DNA from: Salinivenus lutea
Lineage (GTDB): Bacteria > Bacteroidota > Rhodothermia > Rhodothermales > Salinibacteraceae
DNA length: 64,000 nucleotides
Assembly (NCBI GenBank): GCA_002894685.1
Contig: NCRC01000013.1
Span: 1 to 64,000, forward strand
Direction of reading: 5' to 3'
Under the pieces are notes generated by a model, which was not told where the DNA came from, made no database searches, and worked only from the letters and a program-made list of their open reading frames with translations. The translations under genes and the position numbers were made by a program. Of the stretch, positions 4,429-61,548 are shown one piece after another (the first letter of the stretch is position 1; the number at the start of each line of letters is the position of its first letter).

Positions 4429-6759
4429 TTAGAAGCGGGGGAGCGACTCAAGCGGCACCTCGGTCGTCGGGCCCGTGAGGCGGAACGTGGTCGTCTGCAC
4501 GTCCGCCGAGCTCGTGCCCACGTGCACCCGAAAGTGCCCCGGCTCCACGATGCGCCGCATCCGCGGGCCGAAGAAGGCGAGGTCGTCCATGGTGAGGGCA
4601 AACCGCACCGTGCGCGTCTCGCCCGGCGCCAGCGTGACCCGCCGGGTGTCCCGCAGGGTTTTGACGCGGGGCGTGACGCTGGCGACCGAGTCCTCCACGT
4701 AGAGCTGCGCGACCTCCGTCCCGCGCCGGTCGCCCGTGTTGGTGAGGTCCACCGCCACGCGCACCGTGTCGTTGACCGTCACCGAGTCGGCGTGCACGCG
4801 GGGCGCACTGTACGAGAAGGTCGTGTAGCTGAGCCCGTGCCCGAACGGGTAGAGCGGCGTCCACGGCGTGTCGAGGTAGGTCGACTTGTAGTCCTGGCCC
4901 TTCACCGGCGGGCGGCCCGTGTTTTTCTCGTTGTAGAAGATGGGGATCTGGCCGGTCGTGCGGGGGAAGGTCATCGGCAGCTTGCCGCTCGGGGATACGT
5001 CGCCAAAGAGGACGTCGGCCACGGCGGGCCCGGCCTCGGTGCCCGGGTACCACGCCTCCAGGATGGCGGGCACCGCGGCGTCGAGCCCCGACAGCGCGAG
5101 GGGGCGGCCGTTCAGGAGGACGGCGGCGGTGGGCGTGCCCGACGCGGCCACGGCCTCGGCCAGCGCCGGCTGCGCGCCCGGCAGCTCGATGGAGGTGCGG
5201 CTGGCGGCCTCGCCGCTCATGTTGTACTCCTCGCCCAGCACCAGGACGGCCGCGTCGGCGTCCCGGGCGGCGGCCACGGCGTCGGACACGGCCGACGTGT
5301 CCGTGCTCGTGACGTCGGGCAGGCCGGGCACGTACTCCACGTCCACGTCGCGCGCGCGGAGCCCCTCCAGGAGCGAGACGGCGTCCTCGGCCCGCCCGGA
5401 GGCGGCCCACTCGCCCAGGATGGTCCGGTCGTCGTCGGCCAGGGGCCCGATCACGGCCACCGACCCGACGTCGTCGCCGAGCGGCAGCACGTCGTTTTCG
5501 TTTTTGAGCAGGACCATCGACTGGTGGGCCGCGGTGCGGGCCAGGTCGCGGTGGCGGTCCGAGAGGATCACCTCGTCCTCCCGCGCCTCGCTCCCGTAGC
5601 GGTACGGGTCCGCAAAGAGCCCGAGGTCCCACTTGGCGCGCAGGACGCGGCGGACGGCCTCGTTCACTTCTTCCTCGTAGAGCGCCCCGCTGCGCACGGC
5701 GGTGTCGAGCGTGTCGCCGTAGATGCCGCTCACCATGTCGACGTCGACGCCGGCCTCCAGGGCCTGCACGCCGGCCGCGCGGTCCGAGCCCGCGATGCCG
5801 TGCTGCCGCAGCTCCCAGACGGCGGTGTAGTCGCTCACGACGACGCCGTCCCAGCCCCAGTCGGTGCGCAGGAGCCCGTCGATCAGGCCGTCGTGGGCGT
5901 GCATGGGGACGCCGCCGATTTCGTTAAAGCCGGGCATCACGCTCCGGGCGCCCGCGTCAAGGGCCGCGTGGAAGGGGGGCAGGAAAATCTCGTGCAGCGT
6001 GCGCTCGGAGACGTCGACCGTGTGGTAGTCGCGCCCGGCCTGCGGGGCGCCGTAGCCCACGAAGTGCTTGGCCGTGGCCATCACGGTCGTGTCGGCGGCC
6101 AGGGCCTCCGACTGAAAGCCTTTCACCCGGGCCCGTGCCAGGACGCTGTTCAGGTAGGGGTCCTCGCCCTCGCCCTCCATGACGCGGCCCCAGCGCGGCT
6201 CGCGGCTGAGGTCGACCATCGGGGCGAAGGTCCAGTGCACGCCGCCGGCCGTGGCCTCGCGCGTGGCGGCCCGGGCCGTGCGCCGGGCGAGATCGGCGTT
6301 GAAGCTGCTCGCCTCGCCCAGCGGGATCGGAAAGATTGTGCGGTAGCCGTGCACCACGTCGTAGGCGAAGAGGAGCGGAATGCCGAGGCGCGACTCCTCG
6401 ACGGCGATCTCCTGCATCTCCCGCGTGGCCTCGGCCCCGTAGAGGCTCAGGAAGGACCCGACGCGCCCGGCCCGCACGTCTTCCTGGCGCCCGGCGGGCA
6501 CGCTGGGGCCGGTGTCGCTCCACTGGCTGGGGTACTGGGCCAGCTGGCCGAGCTTCTCCTCCAGCGTCATGAGCGAGAGGAGCGAGTCGACAAACGCGGT
6601 GCGGCCGTCCACCGCCTCGGCGAGGGCGACGGCCCGGGACGACTCGGCCGGCTGGGCGGCGGCGTGGGGGGCGGCGCCCAGGGCGACCGTGAGCAGGAGC
6701 GCGGCCCCCAGGGCACGCAGCGGACGGCGACGGGACAGAAGCGAGATCGGCAAACGCAT
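4429..6759 (-). CDS. Glycoside hydrolase family 3 beta-glucosidase, exported (PUL 1)
   Basis: 776 residues from ATG 6759, chosen because it places an Arg-rich n-region directly before the hydrophobic signal peptide ending Ala-His-Ala-Ala-Ala-Gln. The order is the N-terminal GH3 barrel, the alpha/beta sandwich domain, and a C-terminal fibronectin III-like domain. The catalytic nucleophile is Asp310 in Val-Val-Val-Ser-Asp-Tyr; Lys-His-Phe and Asp-Arg-Asp-Tyr-His motifs of the sugar site are present. It matches BglX-type periplasmic enzymes that release glucose from beta-linked oligosaccharides. It is last in the PUL 1 gene run. With the GH144-type gene upstream, a role in cleaving sophoro-oligosaccharides is likely, but specificity cannot be read from sequence alone. 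Confidence 0.9.
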   Translation of the reverse strand: MRLPISLLSRRRPLRALGAALLLTVALGAAPHAAAQPAESSRAVALAEAVDGRTAFVDSLLSLMTLEEKLGQLAQYPSQWSDTGPSVPAGRQEDVRAGRVGSFLSLYGAEATREMQEIAVEESRLGIPLLFAYDVVHGYRTIFPIPLGEASSFNADLARRTARAATREATAGGVHWTFAPMVDLSREPRWGRVMEGEGEDPYLNSVLARARVKGFQSEALAADTTVMATAKHFVGYGAPQAGRDYHTVDVSERTLHEIFLPPFHAALDAGARSVMPGFNEIGGVPMHAHDGLIDGLLRTDWGWDGVVVSDYTAVWELRQHGIAGSDRAAGVQALEAGVDVDMVSGIYGDTLDTAVRSGALYEEEVNEAVRRVLRAKWDLGLFADPYRYGSEAREDEVILSDRHRDLARTAAHQSMVLLKNENDVLPLGDDVGSVAVIGPLADDDRTILGEWAASGRAEDAVSLLEGLRARDVDVEYVPGLPDVTSTDTSAVSDAVAAARDADAAVLVLGEEYNMSGEAASRTSIELPGAQPALAEAVAASGTPTAAVLLNGRPLALSGLDAAVPAILEAWYPGTEAGPAVADVLFGDVSPSGKLPMTFPRTTGQIPIFYNEKNTGRPPVKGQDYKSTYLDTPWTPLYPFGHGLSYTTFSYSAPRVHADSVTVNDTVRVAVDLTNTGDRRGTEVAQLYVEDSVASVTPRVKTLRDTRRVTLAPGETRTVRFALTMDDLAFFGPRMRRIVEPGHFRVHVGTSSADVQTTTFRLTGPTTEVPLESLPRF

Positions 6760-6791
6760 ACGGGGGATCGGCAAGGAAACGGGTGGGTACA

Positions 6792-6827
6792 AAGGACGAG
6801 AGGCGTGTGAAGGACGAGAGGCGTGCG
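6792..6827. repeat. 18-bp tandem direct repeat upstream of the GH3 gene
   Basis: AAGGACGAGAGGCGTGTG (6792-6809) is repeated immediately as AAGGACGAGAGGCGTGCG (6810-6827), with one difference. It lies 33 bases upstream of the GH3 start, so it could be a regulator site or a slippage duplication. Confidence 0.7.
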
Positions 6828-6981: not shown

Positions 6982-8493
6982 TTAGTGGTCGGCGGCGTCG
7001 GCGGGGGCGTCTAGAGCGGCGGAGTGGGTGCGGCCGAAGCGGTCGGTGGCCTCCACGCGGAGGCGCCCGTGGTCGAGCGCGACGGGGGCGTAGAAGAGGT
7101 GCCCGGTGCGCGCCGGCTCGATCCAGGAAAAGCGGTCGGGCCGGTCGCCCTCGAACAAGTCGACGGCCCGCGGGTCGCGGCCCACGCGGCGGGCCATGCG
7201 CCCGCGCCGCACCCCGTCCTCGACCCACGTCACGGTCCACTCGGGGTCCCAGTCCCACACGTTGGCCCCAAACTCGTCGGGGGCCGTCTCGTCAGCCCCG
7301 CGCCCAAAGACGCGGATCTGGTGATCGGCGTCGTGCCCGGCGGCCTGGTAGCGCCACCGCAGGTCGGTGCCGTCCACCTCGTAAACCCCAAAGCCGCGAG
7401 GCGTTCCGTCCATGCAGAGGTCGGCGGTCCACCACGCCCCGCAGGCGGCCCCGTGGATGTGCTCGTGGACGCCCTTCCGCAGAACGTGTTCGTGCTCATG
7501 GGTGTGGCCCGACAGGAGGTGGGCGTCGTAGTCCGCCAGCAGGTCGTACAGGGCCGACCGGTTCGTGACCGACTCTGTGATTTCCGGGCGGGGGTCGCCC
7601 TCCCGAATTGAGAGGGTCGAGTAGGCCGGGATGTGCTGGAAGACGACCACGGGCCGCCCCGCCGCCACCCGCTCCAGGTCGGCCGCCAGCCAGGCCAGCT
7701 GCGCGTCGTCGACGTAGCCGAAGTACTCGTTCTGGTTCCAGAAGACGTCGTCGAGCACCACGTAGTGCACGGCCCCGCGGTCGAACGAGTAGTAGGTGGG
7801 GCCGAACTGCTCGCGGTACGTGGCGGCGGAGCGGTCGTCGGTGGGCGCGCCGTAGTCCATGTCGTGGTTGCCCAGCACCTGCAGAAAGGGCACGCCCATG
7901 CGCCGGACGGCGGCCTCGTACTGTGGGTAGAGCTCGGGGCTGTCGAACGTAATGTCGCCCCCGGTGACGCCAAAGACGGGCCGGTCGCCCAGGTCGTCAA
8001 TGGCGTCCCGCACGGCCGGCACGACCCCGGCCCGAAACTGCTCCATGTCGGCCTCGGTCTGCGTTTGCGGGTCGGCCAGAAAGACGAACGCGTGCTGCTC
8101 GTCGGAGCGGGGGAGCGGCTCCAGGTCGAACTGAACCTCCATCGGGCCGTCGTCGGCGGGCACGATGGGGCGGTAGAACCGGGCCGTGCCCGTCGGGCGC
8201 GTCGGCAGGCGGTAGCCGGACGGGACCGAGAGGTAGACGAACGGCTGGCGCGTGCTGGAGCGGAGCGTGAACGTGCCGTCCGCCGCCGTGTCCACGATGC
8301 GGCGCCCGTCGGTGACCGGGACGCCGCCGACGCCCTCGCCGCGGGCCCCCACCCGCCCCTCAATGCGCACCGCCTCGGCCGACGCGGACGCGCTGCCCAG
8401 GGTGAACGGCAGGCTGAGGGCCGCGCCGGTGCCGGCCATCCGGCGCAAAAACTGGCGGCGGCTTGGATCAAACGCGGACGACGAAGCGGGCAT
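6982..8493 (-). CDS. Tat-exported calcineurin-like metallophosphoesterase (PUL 1)
   Basis: 503 residues from ATG 8493. The N terminus has a twin-arginine signal (Ser-Arg-Arg-Gln-Phe-Leu-Arg-Arg, then a hydrophobic Ala/Leu stretch), so the protein should be exported folded. A short beta-sandwich domain (about residues 40-120, resembling the N-terminal domain of bacterial calcineurin-like proteins) comes first. The phosphoesterase core follows, with Leu-Ala-Asp-Pro-Gln, Gly-Gly-Asp-Ile, Gly-Asn-His-Asp and Ser-Gly-His-Thr-His metal-binding motifs. The C-terminal region resembles the calcineurin-associated C-terminal domain. The substrate is unknown. Its position between the GH144-type and GH3 genes suggests removal of a phosphate or phosphodiester from the imported glycan or from a substituent on it. 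Confidence 0.85.
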   Translation of the reverse strand: MPASSSAFDPSRRQFLRRMAGTGAALSLPFTLGSASASAEAVRIEGRVGARGEGVGGVPVTDGRRIVDTAADGTFTLRSSTRQPFVYLSVPSGYRLPTRPTGTARFYRPIVPADDGPMEVQFDLEPLPRSDEQHAFVFLADPQTQTEADMEQFRAGVVPAVRDAIDDLGDRPVFGVTGGDITFDSPELYPQYEAAVRRMGVPFLQVLGNHDMDYGAPTDDRSAATYREQFGPTYYSFDRGAVHYVVLDDVFWNQNEYFGYVDDAQLAWLAADLERVAAGRPVVVFQHIPAYSTLSIREGDPRPEITESVTNRSALYDLLADYDAHLLSGHTHEHEHVLRKGVHEHIHGAACGAWWTADLCMDGTPRGFGVYEVDGTDLRWRYQAAGHDADHQIRVFGRGADETAPDEFGANVWDWDPEWTVTWVEDGVRRGRMARRVGRDPRAVDLFEGDRPDRFSWIEPARTGHLFYAPVALDHGRLRVEATDRFGRTHSAALDAPADAADH

Positions 8494-8540
8494 GGGCACG
8501 GGCGGTGGTGAGAGAGATCCTGGAACCGGCGTAGGCGGGG

Positions 8541-8645
8541 CTACTCGTCCCGCAGCCGCTCGTCGGCCTGCCAGTCGCCGCGGCGGAGCGGGATCTGCAG
8601 GGCGTCCTCGGCCTCCAGCCGGTCGAAGGGCGGCGCCGGGGCGCG
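8541..8645 (-). pseudogene. Possible C-terminal remnant of a lost gene
   Basis: Between two intact genes, the minus strand has a short open frame of about 34 codons bounded by TGA (about 8646-8648) and TAG (8541-8543). It has no plausible start codon. It encodes a normal-looking acidic/hydrophobic tail including Leu-Glu-Ala-Glu-Asp-Ala-Leu-Gln-Ile-Pro-Leu-Arg. This looks like the end of a gene whose 5' part was deleted. The parent family is not recognised. Confidence 0.3.
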
Positions 8646-8683
8646 GCATCACGTTCGGGGCGACGGCGGGCGGGTCGGGGCGT

Positions 8684-10123
8684 TTATTCGCACCGGCCCT
8701 CGATCCAGCCGCCGGCGAAGTCGGCGCGGCAGAGGCCGCGGACCACGTACGGGTTCTCGCGCATGAGCGACCAGATGAGGCCCGTGCGGTGGTTCTCGAT
8801 CATCGTGAGGATGGGCCCCTGGTCGATGCCGAGGTATTCGGTTTCGAACCAGCCCTGGGGCGTCGTCTGGCCGCCGTCGGGCGGGGGTTCGTCGAGGCTG
8901 TACGTTGGGTTGAAGGCGTCGTAGAAGCCGTATTCCCCGAAGAGGCGGTCGCCGTAGCGGGATCGCATCTCTTTGAGCGCGGCGATCGTGGTGTCGGGGG
9001 CGAAGGGCACGGAGCCGCCCACGGCCGTGGGGGCGAGGGTGCCGTCGTCGCGGATGTCGCCCTGCGCCGCGCCGCGGGCCCAGTAGCCCCGAAACTCCCG
9101 CTCCTGCCCGTTCACCGTGACGGTGGTGTTGCCCGGGCCGTCGGAGGCGGTGAGGCCCCAGATGGTTTCGCCGTAGCCGGCAAACGCGTGGGGGTTGTCC
9201 ATCGCGTAGGCCCGCTGGGCGAGGGTGGCGCGGCGCGAGTTTTCGAAGTAGTCGATCCCCTTCTCGCGCATGTAGGGGTCCTGGATCTCGCGGAAGTCGA
9301 TCCAGATGTGGGAGTACTGGTGCCCAAAGAGCGGGGCGAAGTTGACGTGCTCGTAGCCGTAGAACGACGCCCAGTCGTACGTGCTCGTGAAGGCGGGCCA
9401 CCCCTCCGCGTCCACCGGGTGGGTGGGCGAGCCGAGCCCCAGCACGTAGAGCAGCATCGCCTCGTCGTAGCCCTCGTAGCCGTAGTCGAAGCGGCCCTCC
9501 TGGGGGGTCCACCCCATGCTGATGGTGCCGTCGGGCAGCTGCATGCGGTCCCACTCCACGCGCCGGTAGAGCGAGTCGGCCAGCGCCCGGATCTGGGCCT
9601 CCGTTTCGCCGCTGCCGTCGAAGTACTGCCGGGCCGTGAGGGCGCCCATGAGGAAGAGCGCCGTGTCGATCGTGGAGAGCTCCGTCTGCTGGTGCCGCTC
9701 GCCGGTCTCCAGGTCGACGAAGTGGTAGAAAAAGCCCCAGCGGCCCGTCATGCCGTTCGCCGCGGCGCCCTGGGGGGCCTCCCAGAAGAACTCGAGCGTC
9801 CGGAGGGTGCGCTCGCGGGCCTGCTCGCGGGTGATGTAGCCGCGCTCCACGCCGATCGGGTAGGCCGTGAGGGCGTAGCCGACGGCCGCCACGCTGGCGA
9901 ACGGCGGGTCGGGCCACCGGTCGGGCGCCAGCCCGTTGTCGGCGTTTGTCGTCTCCCAGAAGAAGTCGAACGTGCGGGCCTGCACGGTGTCGAGGAACGG
10001 CCCGGTCGCGACCGTCGTGTCGGCGGGCGGCGCGTCGGCCGTGGCGCCCGGGTCCGACGAACAGGCCGTGAGCAGGCCGAGGGTCCCCAGGCAGGCGAGC
10101 AGAAAAAGAGCAGGGCGCGTCAT
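8684..10123 (-). CDS. Glucoamylase-like (GH144-type) endo-beta-1,2-glucanase lipoprotein (PUL 1)
   Basis: 479 residues from ATG 10123 (a GTG nine bases earlier is possible). The signal peptide ends in the lipobox Leu-Leu-Thr-Ala-Cys followed by Ser-Ser-Asp, so the product is lipid-anchored. The body matches the bacterial 'glycoamylase' domain (PF10091), which includes characterised GH144 endo-beta-1,2-glucanases. Hallmarks are Thr-Phe-Asp-Phe-Phe-Trp-Glu near the N terminus, the Phe-Gly-His-Gln-Tyr-Ser-His-Ile-Trp-Ile-Asp segment mid-protein, and the C-terminal Asp-Gln-Gly-Pro-Ile...Ile-Glu-Asn-His-Arg-Thr-Gly-Leu-Ile-Trp. The gene lies directly downstream of SusD in the same direction. Substrate specificity is inferred from family and from the GH3 partner; other activities exist in PF10091. 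Confidence 0.8.
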   Translation of the reverse strand: MTRPALFLLACLGTLGLLTACSSDPGATADAPPADTTVATGPFLDTVQARTFDFFWETTNADNGLAPDRWPDPPFASVAAVGYALTAYPIGVERGYITREQARERTLRTLEFFWEAPQGAAANGMTGRWGFFYHFVDLETGERHQQTELSTIDTALFLMGALTARQYFDGSGETEAQIRALADSLYRRVEWDRMQLPDGTISMGWTPQEGRFDYGYEGYDEAMLLYVLGLGSPTHPVDAEGWPAFTSTYDWASFYGYEHVNFAPLFGHQYSHIWIDFREIQDPYMREKGIDYFENSRRATLAQRAYAMDNPHAFAGYGETIWGLTASDGPGNTTVTVNGQEREFRGYWARGAAQGDIRDDGTLAPTAVGGSVPFAPDTTIAALKEMRSRYGDRLFGEYGFYDAFNPTYSLDEPPPDGGQTTPQGWFETEYLGIDQGPILTMIENHRTGLIWSLMRENPYVVRGLCRADFAGGWIEGRCE

Positions 10124-10261
10124 GGAAGTCACCGCGGGTGTGAATGAGTGGGCGCACTCGCCCGGTCTCTGGTGGGGGTCCGTTGAAAGCGTCCCGGGCC
10201 CGGCCCCAGACGGGGGCGCGGGCGCCGAGAGAAAGGGGCCGGGGGACCCGAGGCCCTCGGC

Positions 10262-12097
10262 CTAGTATCCGTCGTTCTGGTCCATGACGCCGCCGCTCAG
10301 GTCAATCTCGCTCTGCGGGATCGGGTAGACCGTGTGCTTCGACTCGAAGCCGTCCAGCGCCTCCGCGGCGCGGCCCTGCCGGATGAGGTCGAAGTAGCGG
10401 TGCTGCTCCATCGCCAGCTCGGCGCGGCGCTCGGCCCAGATGGCCTCCAGGAGGGCCTGCCCGCCGGCCGTCACGTCCGGAAGCAACTCCTCGGCCGGGA
10501 CGGTCATCGACATCGGCTGGGTGGTGGTCGTGATGCTGCCGCCGCTCTCCTCCTGCTGGACGCGCGTAATGTCCACCGGCACCGCCTCGCCCGCCGAGAC
10601 GCCCTGGAGCGCCGTGCGGTACTCCTCGCGGGTGGTGACTTCGGTCCCGTCGACCGACTCCAGCACGTCGAGGGTGTCGACGAGGACAGGCTCCTCCGAG
10701 TAGGCAAAGCTGCGCACCCCGGCCTGCCCCGCCGGGCCCTCCTCGTCCGCGTACCGGACGAAGACGTGGGGCGCGCTGCCGGCCAGGCCGAGGGTTTCGG
10801 CCAGCGGCTCCGACATGGTCTCGGGCTGCAGGCCCAGCGTCACCGAGCGGCCCTCCCGCGCCCGCTCCCGGACGTCGTTCAGGTACTGGCGGGCCGTGGC
10901 CTCGTCGCCCGTCTCGTACGCCGCCTCGGCCGCAATCAGGAGCACGTCGGCGTAGCGCAGGCGGCGGATGTTCACGGTGTTATTGCCCGAGCCGCCCGGG
11001 GCGTCCACCGCCGGCTGCACCTTCTCGTTGTACCGCTGGTTCGTCATGTTCGGGTTCACCTCCGCCACGACGCCCGAGCCGTCGGGCAGCGTCTCCCAGG
11101 GGTGCAGGATGGTGGCCTGGTGGCGCGGGTCGCCCGGCTCGTAGGACGCCTCCAGGTCGGGCGACGGCTGGTTGAAGCCCCAGCCGTTGTTGGCACTGCC
11201 CCGCACGCCCTGCACCTGGGCGTACTGGCTGGAGCCCTCCGCCCCGGACTCGCGCGCCACGGCGCCCACCTCGAACAGCGACCCGGAGGAGTGCTCGCCC
11301 TCCGGCCGGAAGATCGTCCAGTAGTCGTCGAGGAGGCTGTACTCGTTCGACGCAATCACATTCTCGGCGTGGGCGAGGGCCTCGTCGTACTCCTCCTGAA
11401 AGAGGTGCACCTTGGCCAGCAGGCCCTCGGCGGCGCCCTGCGTGGCCCGGCCCGTCTCGCTCCCTCCGTAGGCCGAGCGGGGCGGGAGCGCGTCGATGGC
11501 GTCGGTGAGGTCCCGCTCAATCAGGGCGTAGATGGAGTCGCGCGGCGCCCGCGGCTGCTCAAACTCGTCCGACTTCAGGGGCGCCGTAATCTTCGGCACG
11601 CCGCCGTAGGCCCGCACGAGGAAGAAGTAGTAGTACGCCCGCAGGAACTTGTTTTCGCCCATGAGCCGCTCCTGAAGGCCCGCCTCCATGTCGACCGAGG
11701 GAATGTTCTGGATCGCCACGTTTGCCCGGTACACGCCGGTGTAGTAGCCGGCCCACGTGCCGCCGAACGCCCCGTTGGTCGGGCCAAACGTCTTGTTTTG
11801 CAGCTCCAGGAGGAAGCTGGCGTCGGAGGGCGTACTGCCCTTCGTGGCGTCGTCGGACGCGATCTCGGTCACGCCGAGCCACGAGAACACGTGCACCTGC
11901 CAGTCGCGGAGCACGCTGTAGGTGGCGTTGGTGGCCTGAACGGCACTCTGCTGGTCCTCGAAGAAGTTGTCGGAGGTCAACTCGCCCTTTGGCGACTTCT
12001 CGAGGAAGTCGCAGCCGGAGAGCGCAAGGCCGCCGGCAAGGACGAGGGCGAGGGCGAGAACGCCGAGGCGACGCGAAAAGGGGAGGGAGCAACGCAT
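10262..12097 (-). CDS. susD: SusD/RagB-family glycan-binding lipoprotein with a PDZ-like insertion (PUL 1)
   Basis: 611 residues. The lipobox Leu-Ser-Gly-Cys places the lipidated Cys at 29, followed by Asp-Phe-Leu-Glu typical of SusD proteins. The TPR-like helices (Phe-Leu-Arg-Ala-Tyr-Tyr-Tyr-Phe, about 151-158; Arg-Tyr-Ala-Asp-Val-Leu-Leu-Ile-Ala-Ala-Glu-Ala, about 381-392) and the C-terminal 'ERRAEL...RYFDLIR' block are standard. Between residues about 416 and 545 there is an insertion of about 130 residues that reads like a PDZ domain: Gly-Pro-Ala-Gly-Gln-Ala-Gly-Val, then Asp-Val-Leu-Glu-Ser-Val-Asp-Gly-Thr-Glu-Val, then a helix and a beta strand ending Ile-Thr-Arg-Val. The other SusD here (543 residues) lacks it. 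It partners with the SusC gene 52 bp upstream. Confidence 0.9.
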   Translation of the reverse strand: MRCSLPFSRRLGVLALALVLAGGLALSGCDFLEKSPKGELTSDNFFEDQQSAVQATNATYSVLRDWQVHVFSWLGVTEIASDDATKGSTPSDASFLLELQNKTFGPTNGAFGGTWAGYYTGVYRANVAIQNIPSVDMEAGLQERLMGENKFLRAYYYFFLVRAYGGVPKITAPLKSDEFEQPRAPRDSIYALIERDLTDAIDALPPRSAYGGSETGRATQGAAEGLLAKVHLFQEEYDEALAHAENVIASNEYSLLDDYWTIFRPEGEHSSGSLFEVGAVARESGAEGSSQYAQVQGVRGSANNGWGFNQPSPDLEASYEPGDPRHQATILHPWETLPDGSGVVAEVNPNMTNQRYNEKVQPAVDAPGGSGNNTVNIRRLRYADVLLIAAEAAYETGDEATARQYLNDVRERAREGRSVTLGLQPETMSEPLAETLGLAGSAPHVFVRYADEEGPAGQAGVRSFAYSEEPVLVDTLDVLESVDGTEVTTREEYRTALQGVSAGEAVPVDITRVQQEESGGSITTTTQPMSMTVPAEELLPDVTAGGQALLEAIWAERRAELAMEQHRYFDLIRQGRAAEALDGFESKHTVYPIPQSEIDLSGGVMDQNDGY

Positions 12098-12149: not shown

Positions 12150-15100
12150 CTAGAACGTCATGTCGATGCCCATCGTGAACGAGCGGGCGATCGGGTAAAT
12201 GCCGTCGTCGATGGAGCTGGAGATCACCGAGGAGCCGCTAATTTCGGGCGTGTACCCGCTGTACCCGGTGAAGGTGACCAGATTCGTCCCGTTGGCGTAG
12301 AGGCGGAGGTTGTCCAGGTTGAGCGACTGGCTCACGCTCTCGGGCAGCGTGTAGCCCACCTGCACGTTGCGGAGCTTGAGGTAGTCGGCATCCTCCACCA
12401 GCCACTCGGACGCGGTGAACCAGTTGTGGCCCGGGTTGCCGATGCGGGGCTCGGAGTTGGTGCTGCCCGGCCCCGTCCAGCGGTCGAGGTACGACGTCTC
12501 GAAGTTCTCGATGCCGAAGCGCTCGGACTTCTTGGCGTTGAAAATCTGCGCGCCCATCTCTCCGTTGATCGTGGCCGAGACGTCAACCCCCTTGTAGCTC
12601 GCGCTCAGGTTGAGGCCGTAGGTGAGGTCCGGGATCGGGGAGCCGATGTAGGTGCGGTCGTCGCCGTCGATGTCGCCGTCGCCGTCCACGTCGGCAAAGT
12701 TCAGGTCGCCCGGCTCGACGCCCGGCATGGAGGCCGCGTTTTCAATCTCCTCCTGCGTCTGGTAAATGCCGTTCACCTTGTAGCCGTAGAACGAGCCGAT
12801 GGCCCGCCCCGGCTCCGTCTTGGTCGTAAAGGCAATCTCATTGGCCAGGCCGCCGCCAAAGATTTCCTCCTTGCCGGAGCCGAGGGACTGCACCTCGTTG
12901 TTGGTGGTGGCCCCGTTCACGCTCACCTGATACGAGAAGTCGCCGTGGCTCTGCGAGAGGGTTACCTGCGCCTCCAGGCCCGAGTTGACGACCTCGGCGG
13001 CATTGACGAACGGCTGGGTGCCGACGCCCACGTAGTCCGGAATCGGGACGCGCACGAGAATGCCGCTCGTCGTTCGGTTGTAGTAGTCCATCTCGGCTGT
13101 GAGCTGCCCGTCGAAGAGGCCCAGGTTGAGCCCGATGTTGCTCTGGGTCGTCTCCTCCCACTGGATCTGCGGGTTGGCCAGCTCGGTGAGCGTCGCCCCG
13201 AACGCCAGGCTCTCCTGCTGTCCGAAGACGGCGTTCAGGTTCGTGGTCACGCTCGCCACGCTGGGGTAGGCGTTGATCTTGTCGTTGCCGATCTTGCCCC
13301 AGCTGCCGCGCAGCTTCAGGTTGCTAATCACGTCCACGTCCTCCAGAAAGGCCTCCTCGGAGAGGCGCCACCCGAGCGCGACCGACGGGAAGTAGCCGTA
13401 GCGGTTGTCCTCCCCGAAGCGCGAGGAGCCGTCCGCCCGCAGGGAGGCGGTGACCAGGTAGCGGTCCTGGTACGCGTAGTTGGCCCGCATGAGCCCCGAG
13501 AGCATGCTCCAGTCGAAGGCCGTATTCACGTTGGTCTGGCCGTCCTCCTGCCCGGCGCTCAGGTACCACAGGCTTTCGTCCTCCCCGATCACGTTGACGC
13601 GGCTGCCGCCCAGGGTCTCGTTCTTGAACTCCTGGGCCGTGACGCCCGCCACCACGTCAATCGAGTGGTCGTCGATGGTCTGGCTGTAGCTCAGGGTGTT
13701 TTCCCAGAGCCAACTGTTCTCCTCCACCGTGTTGACCGACACGGAGCTCTGGTCGTTGCGCTGGGCCGAGGACACCGCAAATTCGGGGTTGAAGGTGCGC
13801 GTCTCCTGGTTGTCGAGGTCCAGCCCCAGGCTCGACTCGAACGTGAAGTGGTCGAGGAAGGAGTACTCGCCGTACAGATTGCCGACGAAGCGCCGGCCGG
13901 AGTACGTGTTGCGGGTGTAGAAAATCGTGGCCGCCGGGTTGCCGGCCGACGCCCGCGCGCCGGCGTCGCTAAACTCGCCGTCTTCGTTGCGGGGCGGCAC
14001 CGTGGGGTCGGCCCGGTAGGCGGATCCCACCACGCCGGGCCCGTTCGTGCCCGTGCGGTACGTAAAGGCCAGGTTGTGCCCGAGCTCAACGTCCTCGGTC
14101 AGCTGGTACGTGTTGTTGGTCCGGAAGGACGCCCGCTGGAAATCCGACTTCTCCAGGGTGCCGTCTTCCCGAAGGAAGTTGCCGCTAAAGTTGTACGTGA
14201 CGTCCTCGGTCCCGCCCCGGGCGGACACCTGCACGTCCTGGGTCGGGGCCGTGCGGTAGACCTGCTCCTGCCAGTCGGTGCCCTCCCCAAACTGGTCGGG
14301 GGTGTCGAAGGCCGGCGACTGGCCCTGATTCTCCCGCAGCTCGTTCGCCAGCGTGGCGTACTGCCGGGCGTTCGTCAGGTCAATCGGGCTCATGACCTCC
14401 TGCCATCCGTGGGACACATCGGCGCTGAAGGTCGTGCCTTCGCCCGCCTGCCCCTTCTTCGTGGTAATGATGATGACGCCGTTGGCGCCCCGCGAGCCGT
14501 AAATCGCCGTCGCCGAGGCGTCCTTGAGCACCTCGACGGACTCGATGTCGCCGGAGTTGAGAAACGAGATGTCGTTCGTCAGCATCCCGTCCACCACGTA
14601 GAGGGGCGAGGTGTTATTGAGGGTGCCCACGCCCCGAATCCGGATCTGCGCCCCCGCGCCGGGCGCCCCGGAGCTGGGCGTCACCTGCACGCCGGACACC
14701 TTGCCCTGCAGGGCCTGGGAGACCGAGGAGGTGGTCACCTTGCTGATGCTCTCGCCCTCCACGCTTGAGATCGACCCGGTGAGGTCCTCGCGCTCCTGCT
14801 CGCCGTACCCGACCACGACCATCTCGTCGAGCTGGGCCACGTCCGCGGAGAGGACAAACTTCATCTCCACCGTCTCCCCGGCCGCCACGGTGACCTCTTC
14901 TTCCTGGGGCCGATACCCGACGAACGAGGCTCGAAGCGTGTAGTCGCCCGCGTCCAGCCTCTCGAGCGTGTACTGCCCGTCGGCATTGGTGCTGGTGCCC
15001 TGCTGGGTGCCGGCAATCGTGACGTTCGCGCCGGGCAGCGGGCTGCCCTCCTCGTCGACCACCGTGCCGGTGACGGCGCCGGTCGCCTGGGCCTGGGCCT

Positions 15101-15167
15101 GCGGAAGCGCAACGAGGGAGACACACGCGAAAAGGAGGAAGGCAAACGTACATCGGGGACCGCTCAT
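12150..15167 (-). CDS. susC: SusC/RagA-family TonB-linked outer-membrane transporter (PUL 1)
   Basis: 1005 residues. A signal peptide ends in Ala-Gln-Ala-Gln-Ala. It is followed by a carboxypeptidase-D-like beta-sandwich (about 27-105, with Gly-Ser-Pro-Leu-Pro-Gly-Ala-Asn-Val), a TonB-box-like Asp-Glu-Met-Val-Val-Val-Gly-Tyr-Gly, the plug domain with Val-Leu-Lys-Asp-Ala-Ser-Ala-Thr-Ala-Ile-Tyr-Gly-Ser-Arg, and a 22-strand barrel ending in the aromatic Met-Thr-Phe. It imports oligosaccharides across the outer membrane as a pedal-bin complex with SusD. Only 64 bp separate its start from the LacI stop, so it is probably transcribed together with the regulator from the operator-bearing promoter region at 16281-16317. 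Confidence 0.95.
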   Translation of the reverse strand: MSGPRCTFAFLLFACVSLVALPQAQAQATGAVTGTVVDEEGSPLPGANVTIAGTQQGTSTNADGQYTLERLDAGDYTLRASFVGYRPQEEEVTVAAGETVEMKFVLSADVAQLDEMVVVGYGEQEREDLTGSISSVEGESISKVTTSSVSQALQGKVSGVQVTPSSGAPGAGAQIRIRGVGTLNNTSPLYVVDGMLTNDISFLNSGDIESVEVLKDASATAIYGSRGANGVIIITTKKGQAGEGTTFSADVSHGWQEVMSPIDLTNARQYATLANELRENQGQSPAFDTPDQFGEGTDWQEQVYRTAPTQDVQVSARGGTEDVTYNFSGNFLREDGTLEKSDFQRASFRTNNTYQLTEDVELGHNLAFTYRTGTNGPGVVGSAYRADPTVPPRNEDGEFSDAGARASAGNPAATIFYTRNTYSGRRFVGNLYGEYSFLDHFTFESSLGLDLDNQETRTFNPEFAVSSAQRNDQSSVSVNTVEENSWLWENTLSYSQTIDDHSIDVVAGVTAQEFKNETLGGSRVNVIGEDESLWYLSAGQEDGQTNVNTAFDWSMLSGLMRANYAYQDRYLVTASLRADGSSRFGEDNRYGYFPSVALGWRLSEEAFLEDVDVISNLKLRGSWGKIGNDKINAYPSVASVTTNLNAVFGQQESLAFGATLTELANPQIQWEETTQSNIGLNLGLFDGQLTAEMDYYNRTTSGILVRVPIPDYVGVGTQPFVNAAEVVNSGLEAQVTLSQSHGDFSYQVSVNGATTNNEVQSLGSGKEEIFGGGLANEIAFTTKTEPGRAIGSFYGYKVNGIYQTQEEIENAASMPGVEPGDLNFADVDGDGDIDGDDRTYIGSPIPDLTYGLNLSASYKGVDVSATINGEMGAQIFNAKKSERFGIENFETSYLDRWTGPGSTNSEPRIGNPGHNWFTASEWLVEDADYLKLRNVQVGYTLPESVSQSLNLDNLRLYANGTNLVTFTGYSGYTPEISGSSVISSSIDDGIYPIARSFTMGIDMTF

Positions 15168-15231: not shown

Positions 15232-16236
15232 CTACGGCTCGGGGGAGCAGCCGCAGGACTCGCGCCGGACGAGGCGGGTGTGCAGCGTCTGGTGGGCGGG
15301 CGACGCGTCGTCCTGCACGAGGGCGAGGAGCCGCTCCATGGCGCGTTCGCCCAGCTCCTGCATGGGGGCGTGGACGGTCGTCAGGGACGGGGCCACGTAG
15401 TGGGCCATCGGGATGTCGTCGAACCCGACGACGGCCAGGTCGTCCGGCGCCTCCAGCCCCGCCTCGTGGAGGCCGCGGAGGACCCCCAGCGCCATGGAAT
15501 CGTTGGACGCAAAGAGGGCCGTGGGGCGCGGGGTGAGGGACCGGACCTGCTCCACCGCGGCGCGCCCCGCCTCGCGGGTGAAGTCGCCCTCCAGCTCGAG
15601 GGACGGGTCCGCGTCGAGCCCGTAGTCGGACACGGCGGCCCGGTACCCGCTCCGGCGCTCCCGGGCGTCGTAGTTCTGCGGCCCGCCGGTGAGGAGGGCG
15701 ACGCGCTCGTGCCCGTGCTCGGCCAGGTGCTCGACCGCCGCGTAGGCCCCGTCGTGGTTGTCGAAGGCCAGCGTTTCGAAGCGCGGGCCGCTGCGGTCCG
15801 TGTTGAGGAGCACGACCGGGAGGCTGTCCGGCACGAGGTCGTCGAGGAAATCGTGGCTGAGCCGCGGCCACAGCAGGATCAGTCCGTCGACGCGGCCGAG
15901 GAGCGACTGAATGACGGCCTTCGCCTCGTCCTCCTGCGTGTGCGAGTTCGAGACCATCAGGTGGTGCCCGCTGGCCCGCGCCTTCCGGTCGAGCCCCCGC
16001 GTGACCTGCGCAAAGAACTCCCCGTGCATGTTCGGGAGCAGCACGCCGACCATCCGGGTTTCCTGGGCCCGCAGGTTGCGCGCCGTCTCGTTCGGATGGT
16101 ACCCGAGTGCCCGGGCGGCCTTCACGACCTCCTCCTTCGTCGACTCCCGCACGCGGTCACTCCCGTTCAGCACACGGGACACCGTGGCGACGGAGACGTC
16201 GGCCCGATCGGCTACGTCTTGGATGGTCGCGTCCAT
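15232..16236 (-). CDS. LacI-family transcriptional regulator of PUL 1
   Basis: 334 residues. The N-terminal helix-turn-helix (residues 3-25, with Val-Ala-Thr-Val-Ser-Arg-Val-Leu-Asn) and the hinge helix are followed by a periplasmic-binding-protein-like effector domain. The C terminus carries the Arg-Arg-Glu-Ser-Cys-Gly motif common in LacI/GalR proteins. It most likely represses the PUL until a sugar derived from the substrate binds. Two tandem palindromes with LacI-operator geometry lie just upstream (16281-16296 and 16302-16317), so autoregulation is likely. LacI control of a SusCD locus is less common than hybrid two-component or sigma/anti-sigma control in Bacteroides, but it is seen in related halophiles. 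Confidence 0.93.
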   Translation of the reverse strand: MDATIQDVADRADVSVATVSRVLNGSDRVRESTKEEVVKAARALGYHPNETARNLRAQETRMVGVLLPNMHGEFFAQVTRGLDRKARASGHHLMVSNSHTQEDEAKAVIQSLLGRVDGLILLWPRLSHDFLDDLVPDSLPVVLLNTDRSGPRFETLAFDNHDGAYAAVEHLAEHGHERVALLTGGPQNYDARERRSGYRAAVSDYGLDADPSLELEGDFTREAGRAAVEQVRSLTPRPTALFASNDSMALGVLRGLHEAGLEAPDDLAVVGFDDIPMAHYVAPSLTTVHAPMQELGERAMERLLALVQDDASPAHQTLHTRLVRRESCGCSPEP

Positions 16237-59808: not shown

Positions 59809-61440
59809 CTAATAGCCGGGATTCTGCTCCAGGCCGACCAGATCGATCTCCTTCTGCGGGATGGGCCAGAGGTAGTCCCGGCTGCCGTCGAAGCTGTTTT
59901 CGAACGGCTCAAACTCAACCTGCTGGAGGTCGCCGTTCTGGTCCTCGTACCGCATGCCGCGGATTGGGCCGTTTAGGACGTCCTCGGCAATCCCCCAGCG
60001 GCGGACGTCGAAGAAGCGCTGCCCCTCGAATGCCAACTCCACCAGGCGCTCGTGGCGAATCCGCTCCTCGAAGGTGCGGTTCGGGCCGCCGTCGGCCGGC
60101 ACCGCGGGCATGCCCACTCGATTGCGAATCTGATCGAGCGCGTCCTTGGCACTCATGGCGCCCGGGCCCGCGGTACTGGTGGCGCTCCCCGTAATCTCAT
60201 ACTGGGCCTCAGCGTAGATCAGGAGAATCTCGGCGTAGCGCATCTCGATGATGTTCACGCCGCAGTTGTACTGGTCCCCCAGGCACTCCTCGTTCACGTA
60301 TTTCTCGATATTGAAGCCCGTGTCGGTCGTATTGAAGCCCTGCTCAATGTCATCCGCTCCCCCAAAGCCCGGTCGCGGATCGTAGGTCTCTCCGTTGGGC
60401 AGTTCGTCCCCGTACACGAACACGCTGTGGTCCAGGCGCGGATCGCGGTTCTCGTACGGGTTGTTCGGGTCGAAGCCACTGCCGGACGCGTCAATCGGCG
60501 TCCCGTCCTCCATCTCATATGCGTCTACAACCGCCGCCGTGGGCACGTTGAAGTTCTGTCCGCGCCCCGACACAAGGGAGCCCGGCGCGAGGAATTCCAG
60601 CACCTGATTCGGGTGCGTATTCTGGACGAAGTCCTTGTTCAGGATCACCTCGTCGTTGTACTCGGCCTCCGGCGTAAAGAGCTCCTCGTAGCTGTCGTGC
60701 AGGCTGTACTCGCCAAGGTCGATGACGGACTGGGCGGCCGCTCGGGCCTCCTCGTACCGCCCGGCGTACAGCATGGCGCGCGCCCTCAATCCCAGGGCCG
60801 CCCCCTTTGTGGCCCGCCCCTGATTTTCGCCGCTCCAGCTGCGGGGCAGGGTCTCCGAGGCTGCCTGCAGCTCGCTTGAGACAAAGTTCCAGACCTCCTC
60901 CTCACTCGTCCGCGTCACGTCCTGCGCCTCCTCCAAGGCGATGGGCTCTTGAATGAGCGGCACGTCGCCGAAAAGGAAGGCCAGGTGCATGTACAGGTAC
61001 GCCCGCATGAAGCGCGCCTCGGCCATGTGGCGCGAAATCATCTCCTGGTCGCCCTGCTCAATCTCGCCCTGGTAGGACAGGATTTCGTTGGCCGCCCGAA
61101 TGCCCGAGTAGTGACTCTCCCACCAGCTCGGCCACCAGCTGTTGGTAAACTCAGTCGTCGACGTCTGCTGGCCTCGGGCATAGGTGGCCAAGTTGTCGAA
61201 TGACCAGTTGGGGGTCGCTTCGTCGGAGAGGGCCGAGAGGTCGAAGCGGAGCTGGCCGTAGAGGTGGTTGTACAGGTCGTTGCTTGCGACCCGGATGTCC
61301 TCCTCATTCTGCCAGAAGGTCGCCTCCGACAGCGTGCCCGGCGGCTCGGTCTCCAGGAAGTCACACCCAGGAGCAAACAGCAGGGCCGCCCCGAGGGTGG
61401 CGATCAGCGAATAGGCAAGAAGCTTCCGTTTCACAAACAT
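59809..61440 (-). CDS. susD: SusD/RagB-family glycan-binding lipoprotein (PUL 2)
   Basis: 543 residues. The lipobox Ala-Pro-Gly-Cys is followed by Asp-Phe-Leu-Glu-Thr-Glu-Pro-Pro. TPR-like helices include Phe-Met-Arg-Ala-Tyr-Leu-Tyr-Met and Met-Arg-Tyr-Ala-Glu-Ile-Leu-Leu-Ile-Tyr-Ala-Glu. The C-terminal block Ile-Arg-His-Glu-Arg-Leu-Val-Glu-Leu-Ala-Phe-Glu-Gly-Gln-Arg-Phe-Phe-Asp and the end Asp-Leu-Val-Gly-Leu-Glu-Gln-Asn are standard. It has no PDZ-like insertion, unlike the SusD of PUL 1. It forms the surface lid of the transporter encoded just upstream. Confidence 0.95.
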   Translation of the reverse strand: MFVKRKLLAYSLIATLGAALLFAPGCDFLETEPPGTLSEATFWQNEEDIRVASNDLYNHLYGQLRFDLSALSDEATPNWSFDNLATYARGQQTSTTEFTNSWWPSWWESHYSGIRAANEILSYQGEIEQGDQEMISRHMAEARFMRAYLYMHLAFLFGDVPLIQEPIALEEAQDVTRTSEEEVWNFVSSELQAASETLPRSWSGENQGRATKGAALGLRARAMLYAGRYEEARAAAQSVIDLGEYSLHDSYEELFTPEAEYNDEVILNKDFVQNTHPNQVLEFLAPGSLVSGRGQNFNVPTAAVVDAYEMEDGTPIDASGSGFDPNNPYENRDPRLDHSVFVYGDELPNGETYDPRPGFGGADDIEQGFNTTDTGFNIEKYVNEECLGDQYNCGVNIIEMRYAEILLIYAEAQYEITGSATSTAGPGAMSAKDALDQIRNRVGMPAVPADGGPNRTFEERIRHERLVELAFEGQRFFDVRRWGIAEDVLNGPIRGMRYEDQNGDLQQVEFEPFENSFDGSRDYLWPIPQKEIDLVGLEQNPGY

Positions 61441-61496
61441 AGGAGGGCGAAGATCTGGCTTCGTAGAATCTGGAGTTACAGGGGCGTCGTGGGGGA

Positions 61497-61533
61497 GGCC
61501 CCCGACCCCGGGATTGTCCCAGGGGCCAGGGCC
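61497..61533 (-). other. Strong hairpin in the SusC-SusD gap
   Basis: CCCCGGG (61506-61512) pairs with CCC and GGGG (61518-61525, one bulged A) around a 5-base loop, with an outer GGCCC/GGGCC stem. There is no T-run. It lies between the SusC stop and the SusD start and may adjust the SusC:SusD mRNA ratio or protect the 3' end of a processed message. Confidence 0.5.
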
Positions 61534-61548
61534 CTTCCGCCGGCGGGA

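Follow-up and report, generated by a model that had tools for sequence, protein, structure and literature searches.

How do accessory surface proteins attach to SusCD systems, the main nutrient importers of Bacteroidota? A PDZ domain, usually a peptide-gripping module of proteases, bears on this question when it is found within a SusD lid, and such a protein is encoded in the window, i.e. the whole stretch of 64,000 nucleotides that was analyzed. A sequence-only reading had assigned positions 10262 to 12097 to a SusD protein. This assignment was correct, the open reading frame is intact and encodes 611 amino acids, but the strand had not been given; the gene runs on the minus strand from 12097 to 10262. 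Membership in the SusD/RagB family is indicated by PF07980 (E 2.5e-32; 113.2 bits, cut-off 23.1) and PF14322 (E 4.7e-25; 89.4 bits, cut-off 27), and the SusD part of the model resembles solved SusD structures (Foldseek E 1.2e-14; VIA-align Z 26.6, 3.1 Å over 339 residues). By analogy to this family, the protein would bind glycans and serve as the lid of its SusC partner. Its parts are as follows.

10262 to 12097, minus strand: SusD/RagB-family outer-membrane lipoprotein with an inserted PDZ domain, 611 aa (open reading frame; PF07980 and PF14322; 22 orthologs)
12011 to 12097, minus strand: signal peptide with lipobox LSGC and predicted lipidated Cys29 (sequence)
10859 to 12010, minus strand: SusD core upstream of the insert, residues 30-413, with the TPR4 helix at its end (Pfam; AlphaFold2 secondary structure)
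10487 to 10858, minus strand: inserted PDZ domain with short linkers, residues 414-537 (Pfam PDZ_2/PDZ_6 in 21/22 orthologs; AlphaFold2; VIA-align)
10817 to 10840, minus strand: predicted carboxylate-binding loop and first strand, residues 420-427, TLGLQPET (ortholog conservation)
10604 to 10630, minus strand: predicted groove helix alpha-B, residues 490-498 (AlphaFold2 secondary structure)
10262 to 10486, minus strand: SusD core downstream of the insert, residues 538-611, comprising the C-terminal helix and the tail (alignment; SusD_RagB match in Pfam reaching residue 611)

A cysteine close to the N-terminus was also seen in the alignment of the other orthologs with a complete N-terminus. Alignment to PDZ-less SusDs revealed an extra block of approximately 124 residues, which follows the TPR4 helix (...LNDVRERAR) and precedes the C-terminal helix (LLPDV...LLEAIWAERRAELAMEQHRYFDL). 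The block had been located between a TPR-like helix and the C-terminal helices before, which is right, though its boundaries have to be shifted from 416-545 to about 414-537. The alignment of a paralog elsewhere in the genome (44% identity) covers residues 8-416 and 536-611 only, with 24 bases separating the two pieces, and no PDZ match was obtained for the other SusD of the window (59812-61548), in agreement with the sequence-only reading. The motifs in which that reading had recognized PDZ logic, GPAGQAGV (454-461), DVLESVDGTEV (477-487) and ITRV (510-513), are all situated within the block.

Pfam, AlphaFold2, Foldseek and conservation agree on a PDZ domain. PDZ_2 and PDZ_6 matched 21 of the 22 orthologous blocks at E 0.01 or better (best E 1.2e-9), the window block by itself giving sub-threshold matches to PDZ_6 and PDZ_2 (25.7 versus a curated cut-off of 27 bits). 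When a profile of the block was compared to the PDB, DegP-like and HtrA proteases led the matches and no SusD chain was among the best 60. AlphaFold2 modeled the block alone (alignment of 22 sequences) with a mean pLDDT of 90.2 and with strands and helices arranged as in HtrA-type PDZ domains; in the full-length model the PDZ stretch was confident (80 to 95 in steps of ten residues), whereas the SusD core partly was not. Foldseek matched the block model to DegQ, Deg1, DegP and DegS at a probability of 1.00, and VIA-align superimposed it on the first PDZ domain of Legionella DegQ (4ynn; Z 15.5, 2.4 Å over 99 residues), the 50 matches listed being HtrA/Deg-type proteases or PDZ domains thereof, plus MamP. 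By profile, predicted fold and conservation, the inserted block is a complete DegP/DegQ-type PDZ domain. Since 22 genomes carry it in frame at one site, it is far beyond chance, and a chance motif or a disordered block could be ruled out by profile, fold and conservation in these genomes. An assembly or frame error was likewise ruled out, as the in-frame site is identical in independent genomes.

What the block shares with the PDZ domains of HtrA, DegP, DegQ and DegS is the strand order and an extra helix following the carboxylate-binding loop. Unlike in these proteases, it is located in a surface lipoprotein that lacks a protease domain, a longer loop connects GPAxxAG to the D-V-L strand and the carboxylate-binding loop has the motif T-x-G-x-x-P-E. 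With the SusD/RagB family the protein has in common the lipoprotein signal, the TPR scaffold, the C-terminal helices, the fold and the position of the gene adjacent to susC. What sets it apart is the PDZ domain of 124 residues by which TPR4 and the C-terminal helix are separated. The sequence-only reading knew of no such SusD, and no description was found either among the papers that literature searches listed for SusD with PDZ, judged by title and abstract, and for inserted domains in SusD-like proteins, within the part of the literature that was covered.

To follow the distribution of the insert, the block with its flanks was searched for in 244 genomes of the window's class (relatives of Salinibacter and Salinivenus). 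Strong matches identified 22 carriers in four families, which all share the insert and its position: three in the window's genus (the window included), one more in the window's family f1, which includes Salinivenus iranica (Salinibacteraceae), one in f10, six in f16 and 11 in f58. The insert is thus conserved in part of the class, although within the window's own genus carriers are a minority (3/13 genomes). Twenty of the carrier proteins are complete and two run off contig ends. A sample of 394 genomes of the phylum contained only two carriers (G000 and G220), and 395 genomes of another Bacteroidota class contained none, the single weak match being a frame of 344 amino acids, too short for a SusD. 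Matches on plasmids skipped part of the query, as expected for SusDs without the block. In a tree built from the SusD cores with the insert excluded, the 20 complete carriers formed a single clade (support 100/100) beside SusDs of Cyclobacteriaceae (Algoriphagus) without the insert, and a single state change is enough to explain presence and absence. Hence, the PDZ domain most likely goes back to one insertion event, which took place in the common ancestor of a single SusD clade within the window's class. A recent capture from the organism's own proteases was considered and rejected: its HtrA-like proteins match the PDZ family profile only weakly (best E 3e-6, small set), so that no recent donor is seen.

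Selection retains the block. For 11 pairs of relatives, dN/dS amounted to 0.04-0.28 for the PDZ block and to 0.02-0.24 for the SusD core (ranges omit one pair with saturated dS), the block changing faster in all 11 pairs. It is thus under purifying selection, which is weaker than that on the core. Residues 420-427, the predicted carboxylate-binding loop, rank at the top of 116 eight-residue windows for conservation. Within this stretch T420, G422 and E426 are invariant (22/22), P425 is nearly so and T-[LIM]-G-[LIV] occurs in all 22 blocks; R448, A456, A459, G460 and D477 are also invariant and are mostly ordinary core positions of PDZ domains. The conservation of this loop suggests that peptide binding has been retained; it favors such a function without proving it. 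The alpha-B helix, which lines the PDZ groove, is conserved slightly below the mean of the block. In one ortholog (genome G508, L119:9897-10283) the N-G turn is changed and two residues are missing past strand B; this PDZ domain may be decaying or specialized.

The neighborhood of the gene gives an indication of what the importer takes up. All genes listed below are transcribed in the same direction as susD, in the order LacI, SusC, SusD, PF10091 enzyme, phosphoesterase, GH3.

15232 to 16236, minus strand: LacI-family regulator (PF00356, PF13377)
12150 to 15167, minus strand: partner SusC TonB-dependent transporter (Plug, barrel and CarboxypepD_reg-like domains)
8684 to 10132, minus strand: PF10091 enzyme of the GH144 endo-beta-1,2-glucanase kind, predicted lipoprotein (PF10091 E 1.7e-84)
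6982 to 8652, minus strand: calcineurin-like phosphoesterase (MetallophosN, MetallophosC)
4429 to 6792, minus strand: GH3 beta-glucosidase (PF00933, PF01915, Fn3-like; beta-glucosidases in the PDB)

SusC lies upstream of SusD in every PDZ locus with a sufficiently long contig, and a PF10091 enzyme or GH3 was found near the PDZ-bearing SusD in nearly all carriers; the six loci of family f16 lack a neighboring enzyme that belongs to the GH144 subfamily of the window. In the PDB, the PF10091 enzyme of the window is closest to XCC2207 (8xul, E 3.4e-161) and also matches an endo-beta-1,2-glucanase (5gzh, E 2.7e-53). Together with the beta-glucosidase matches of the GH3 protein, this makes beta-1,2-glucan the probable substrate. 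The nearest SusDs, those of Algoriphagus and other Cyclobacteriaceae (53-54% identity; SusC about 50% identical), lack the PDZ insert, but the Algoriphagus loci possess the same order SusC-SusD-PF10091 with the enzyme adjacent. Thus, the PDZ domain does not mark a novel type of locus. With a protein-interaction domain fixed in the lid, such PDZ-less sister systems at similar loci provide a natural control, and the question of attachment becomes directly testable through one compact domain that can be deleted.

Where could a partner of the domain be sought? For BT_3984 it has been proposed that the conserved TPR1-3 region and the C-terminal helices face SusC, while the variable TPRs, TPR4 included, were suggested to bind variable partners encoded by the PUL (PMC2954216). 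The PDZ domain is inserted in the loop past TPR4. SusCD systems are known to form stable complexes with surface enzymes and binding proteins, the utilisomes for levan and dextran being examples (PMC7618045). They share with the locus studied here a SusCD core with accessory surface enzymes or binding lipoproteins. Their glycan-binding protein and enzyme, however, are attached to loops 1 and 9 of SusC and not to SusD, whereas in the putative system considered here the docking-type domain sits on the lid. In comparison to PDZ-less SusCs, no PDZ-specific insert was found in the SusC of carrier loci and there are only nine group-specific residues, most of them mild; a matching insertion was therefore dismissed and a new contact between SusC and the PDZ domain is not indicated. 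The sequence-only reading had proposed, as a hypothesis, that the domain recruits another surface protein or binds a C-terminal peptide, and had named SusC and the neighboring glucanase as possible partners. The C-terminus of the former is a poor candidate, since the last barrel strand normally ends in this way and PDZ-less relatives show the same style. As for the latter, the C-termini of the GH144-type enzyme, GH3 and SusC, judged by eye, showed no tail specific to PDZ-bearing loci. By the same inspection, the GF-x-GGW tail is a trait of the PF10091 subfamily found beside SusD. A second PF10091 enzyme terminates in F-S/T-Y/W, and its counterparts in Algoriphagus and Flammeovirga have homologous termini that are extended.

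Taking together the TPR4 site, the precedent of the utilisomes and the missing indication of a new SusC contact, the favored interpretation, with a probability of roughly one half, is that the PDZ domain on the lid serves to dock another surface protein. According to this model, a DegP/DegQ-type PDZ domain was acquired once by the SusD lid of an importer for beta-glucan, probably beta-1,2-glucan. The domain would project from the lid opposite the conserved SusC-facing surface and hold a second surface protein, most likely a binding lipoprotein or an enzyme, by its C-terminal tail or by an internal beta-strand. This partner might move with the lid and deliver oligosaccharide to the mouth of SusCD. 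Docking is supported by the PDZ fold, the single origin, purifying selection and the conserved carboxylate-binding loop, and furthermore by the variability of the TPR4 site, by a SusC that needs no matching insert and by the existence of SusCD complexes with surface proteins. Against it stand the absence of carrier-specific tails, the six f16 loci devoid of the GH144-subfamily neighbor, utilisome accessories that are attached to SusC, an alpha-B helix without special conservation and the changed N-G turn of L119. More tentatively, the domain could be a socket for C-terminal tails which tethers a surface enzyme or binding lipoprotein to the moving lid, a utilisome design distinct from docking on SusC.

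The main rival to a docking module is a structural role without any ligand, which we consider possible though doubtful: the insert might stiffen the lid, shield an edge or contact the neighboring SusD of the SusC2D2 dimer. The faster change of the PDZ domain relative to the core and its mediocre alpha-B helix would fit, as would the loci of this kind in Algoriphagus and Flammeovirga, which make do with PDZ-less SusDs. A pure spacer, however, would not need a carboxylate-binding loop that is the best conserved part of the domain, unless this loop has a role in packing. PDZ domains are also able to bind internal strands, and the domain might recognize such a strand, or an extracellular SusC loop, within its own SusCD unit and thereby latch the opening of the lid. 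The lid relies on a few hinge loops of SusC for its opening (PMC7782687), which makes a latch conceivable, but the scarcity of changes in the SusC of PDZ loci renders it rather improbable. Least of all do we expect that the transporter additionally imports peptides or glycopeptides and that the PDZ domain catches free C-terminal peptides in the manner of RagAB. RagB is indeed a SusD relative in a peptide importer and RagAB was among the fold matches; nevertheless, glucan enzymes are present in the locus of nearly every genome and no peptidase was found among the neighbors scanned.

Some carrier loci contain further genes. In genome G510, an open reading frame of 1314 amino acids with FG-GAP repeats and ASPIC/UnbV (L102:3756-7697) is located between the PDZ-bearing SusD and the PF10091 enzyme. 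The PF10091 enzyme of one f16 locus (L105:1441-3558) possesses a Big_5 Ig-like domain and adjoins a protein composed of Laminin_G_3 and Big_5 (L105:3562-4857), which is a candidate surface glycan-binding protein and a possible partner of the PDZ domain. Phosphoesterases recur (window 6982-8652; L108:3983-5617; L117:5618-7378; L105:498-1529) and belong to different families, calcineurin-like, purple-acid-phosphatase-like and exo/endo-phosphatase-like. Phosphoglycerol-substituted beta-1,2-glucans occur in other bacteria, and a phosphorylated substrate of this type would fit the recurrence of these enzymes.
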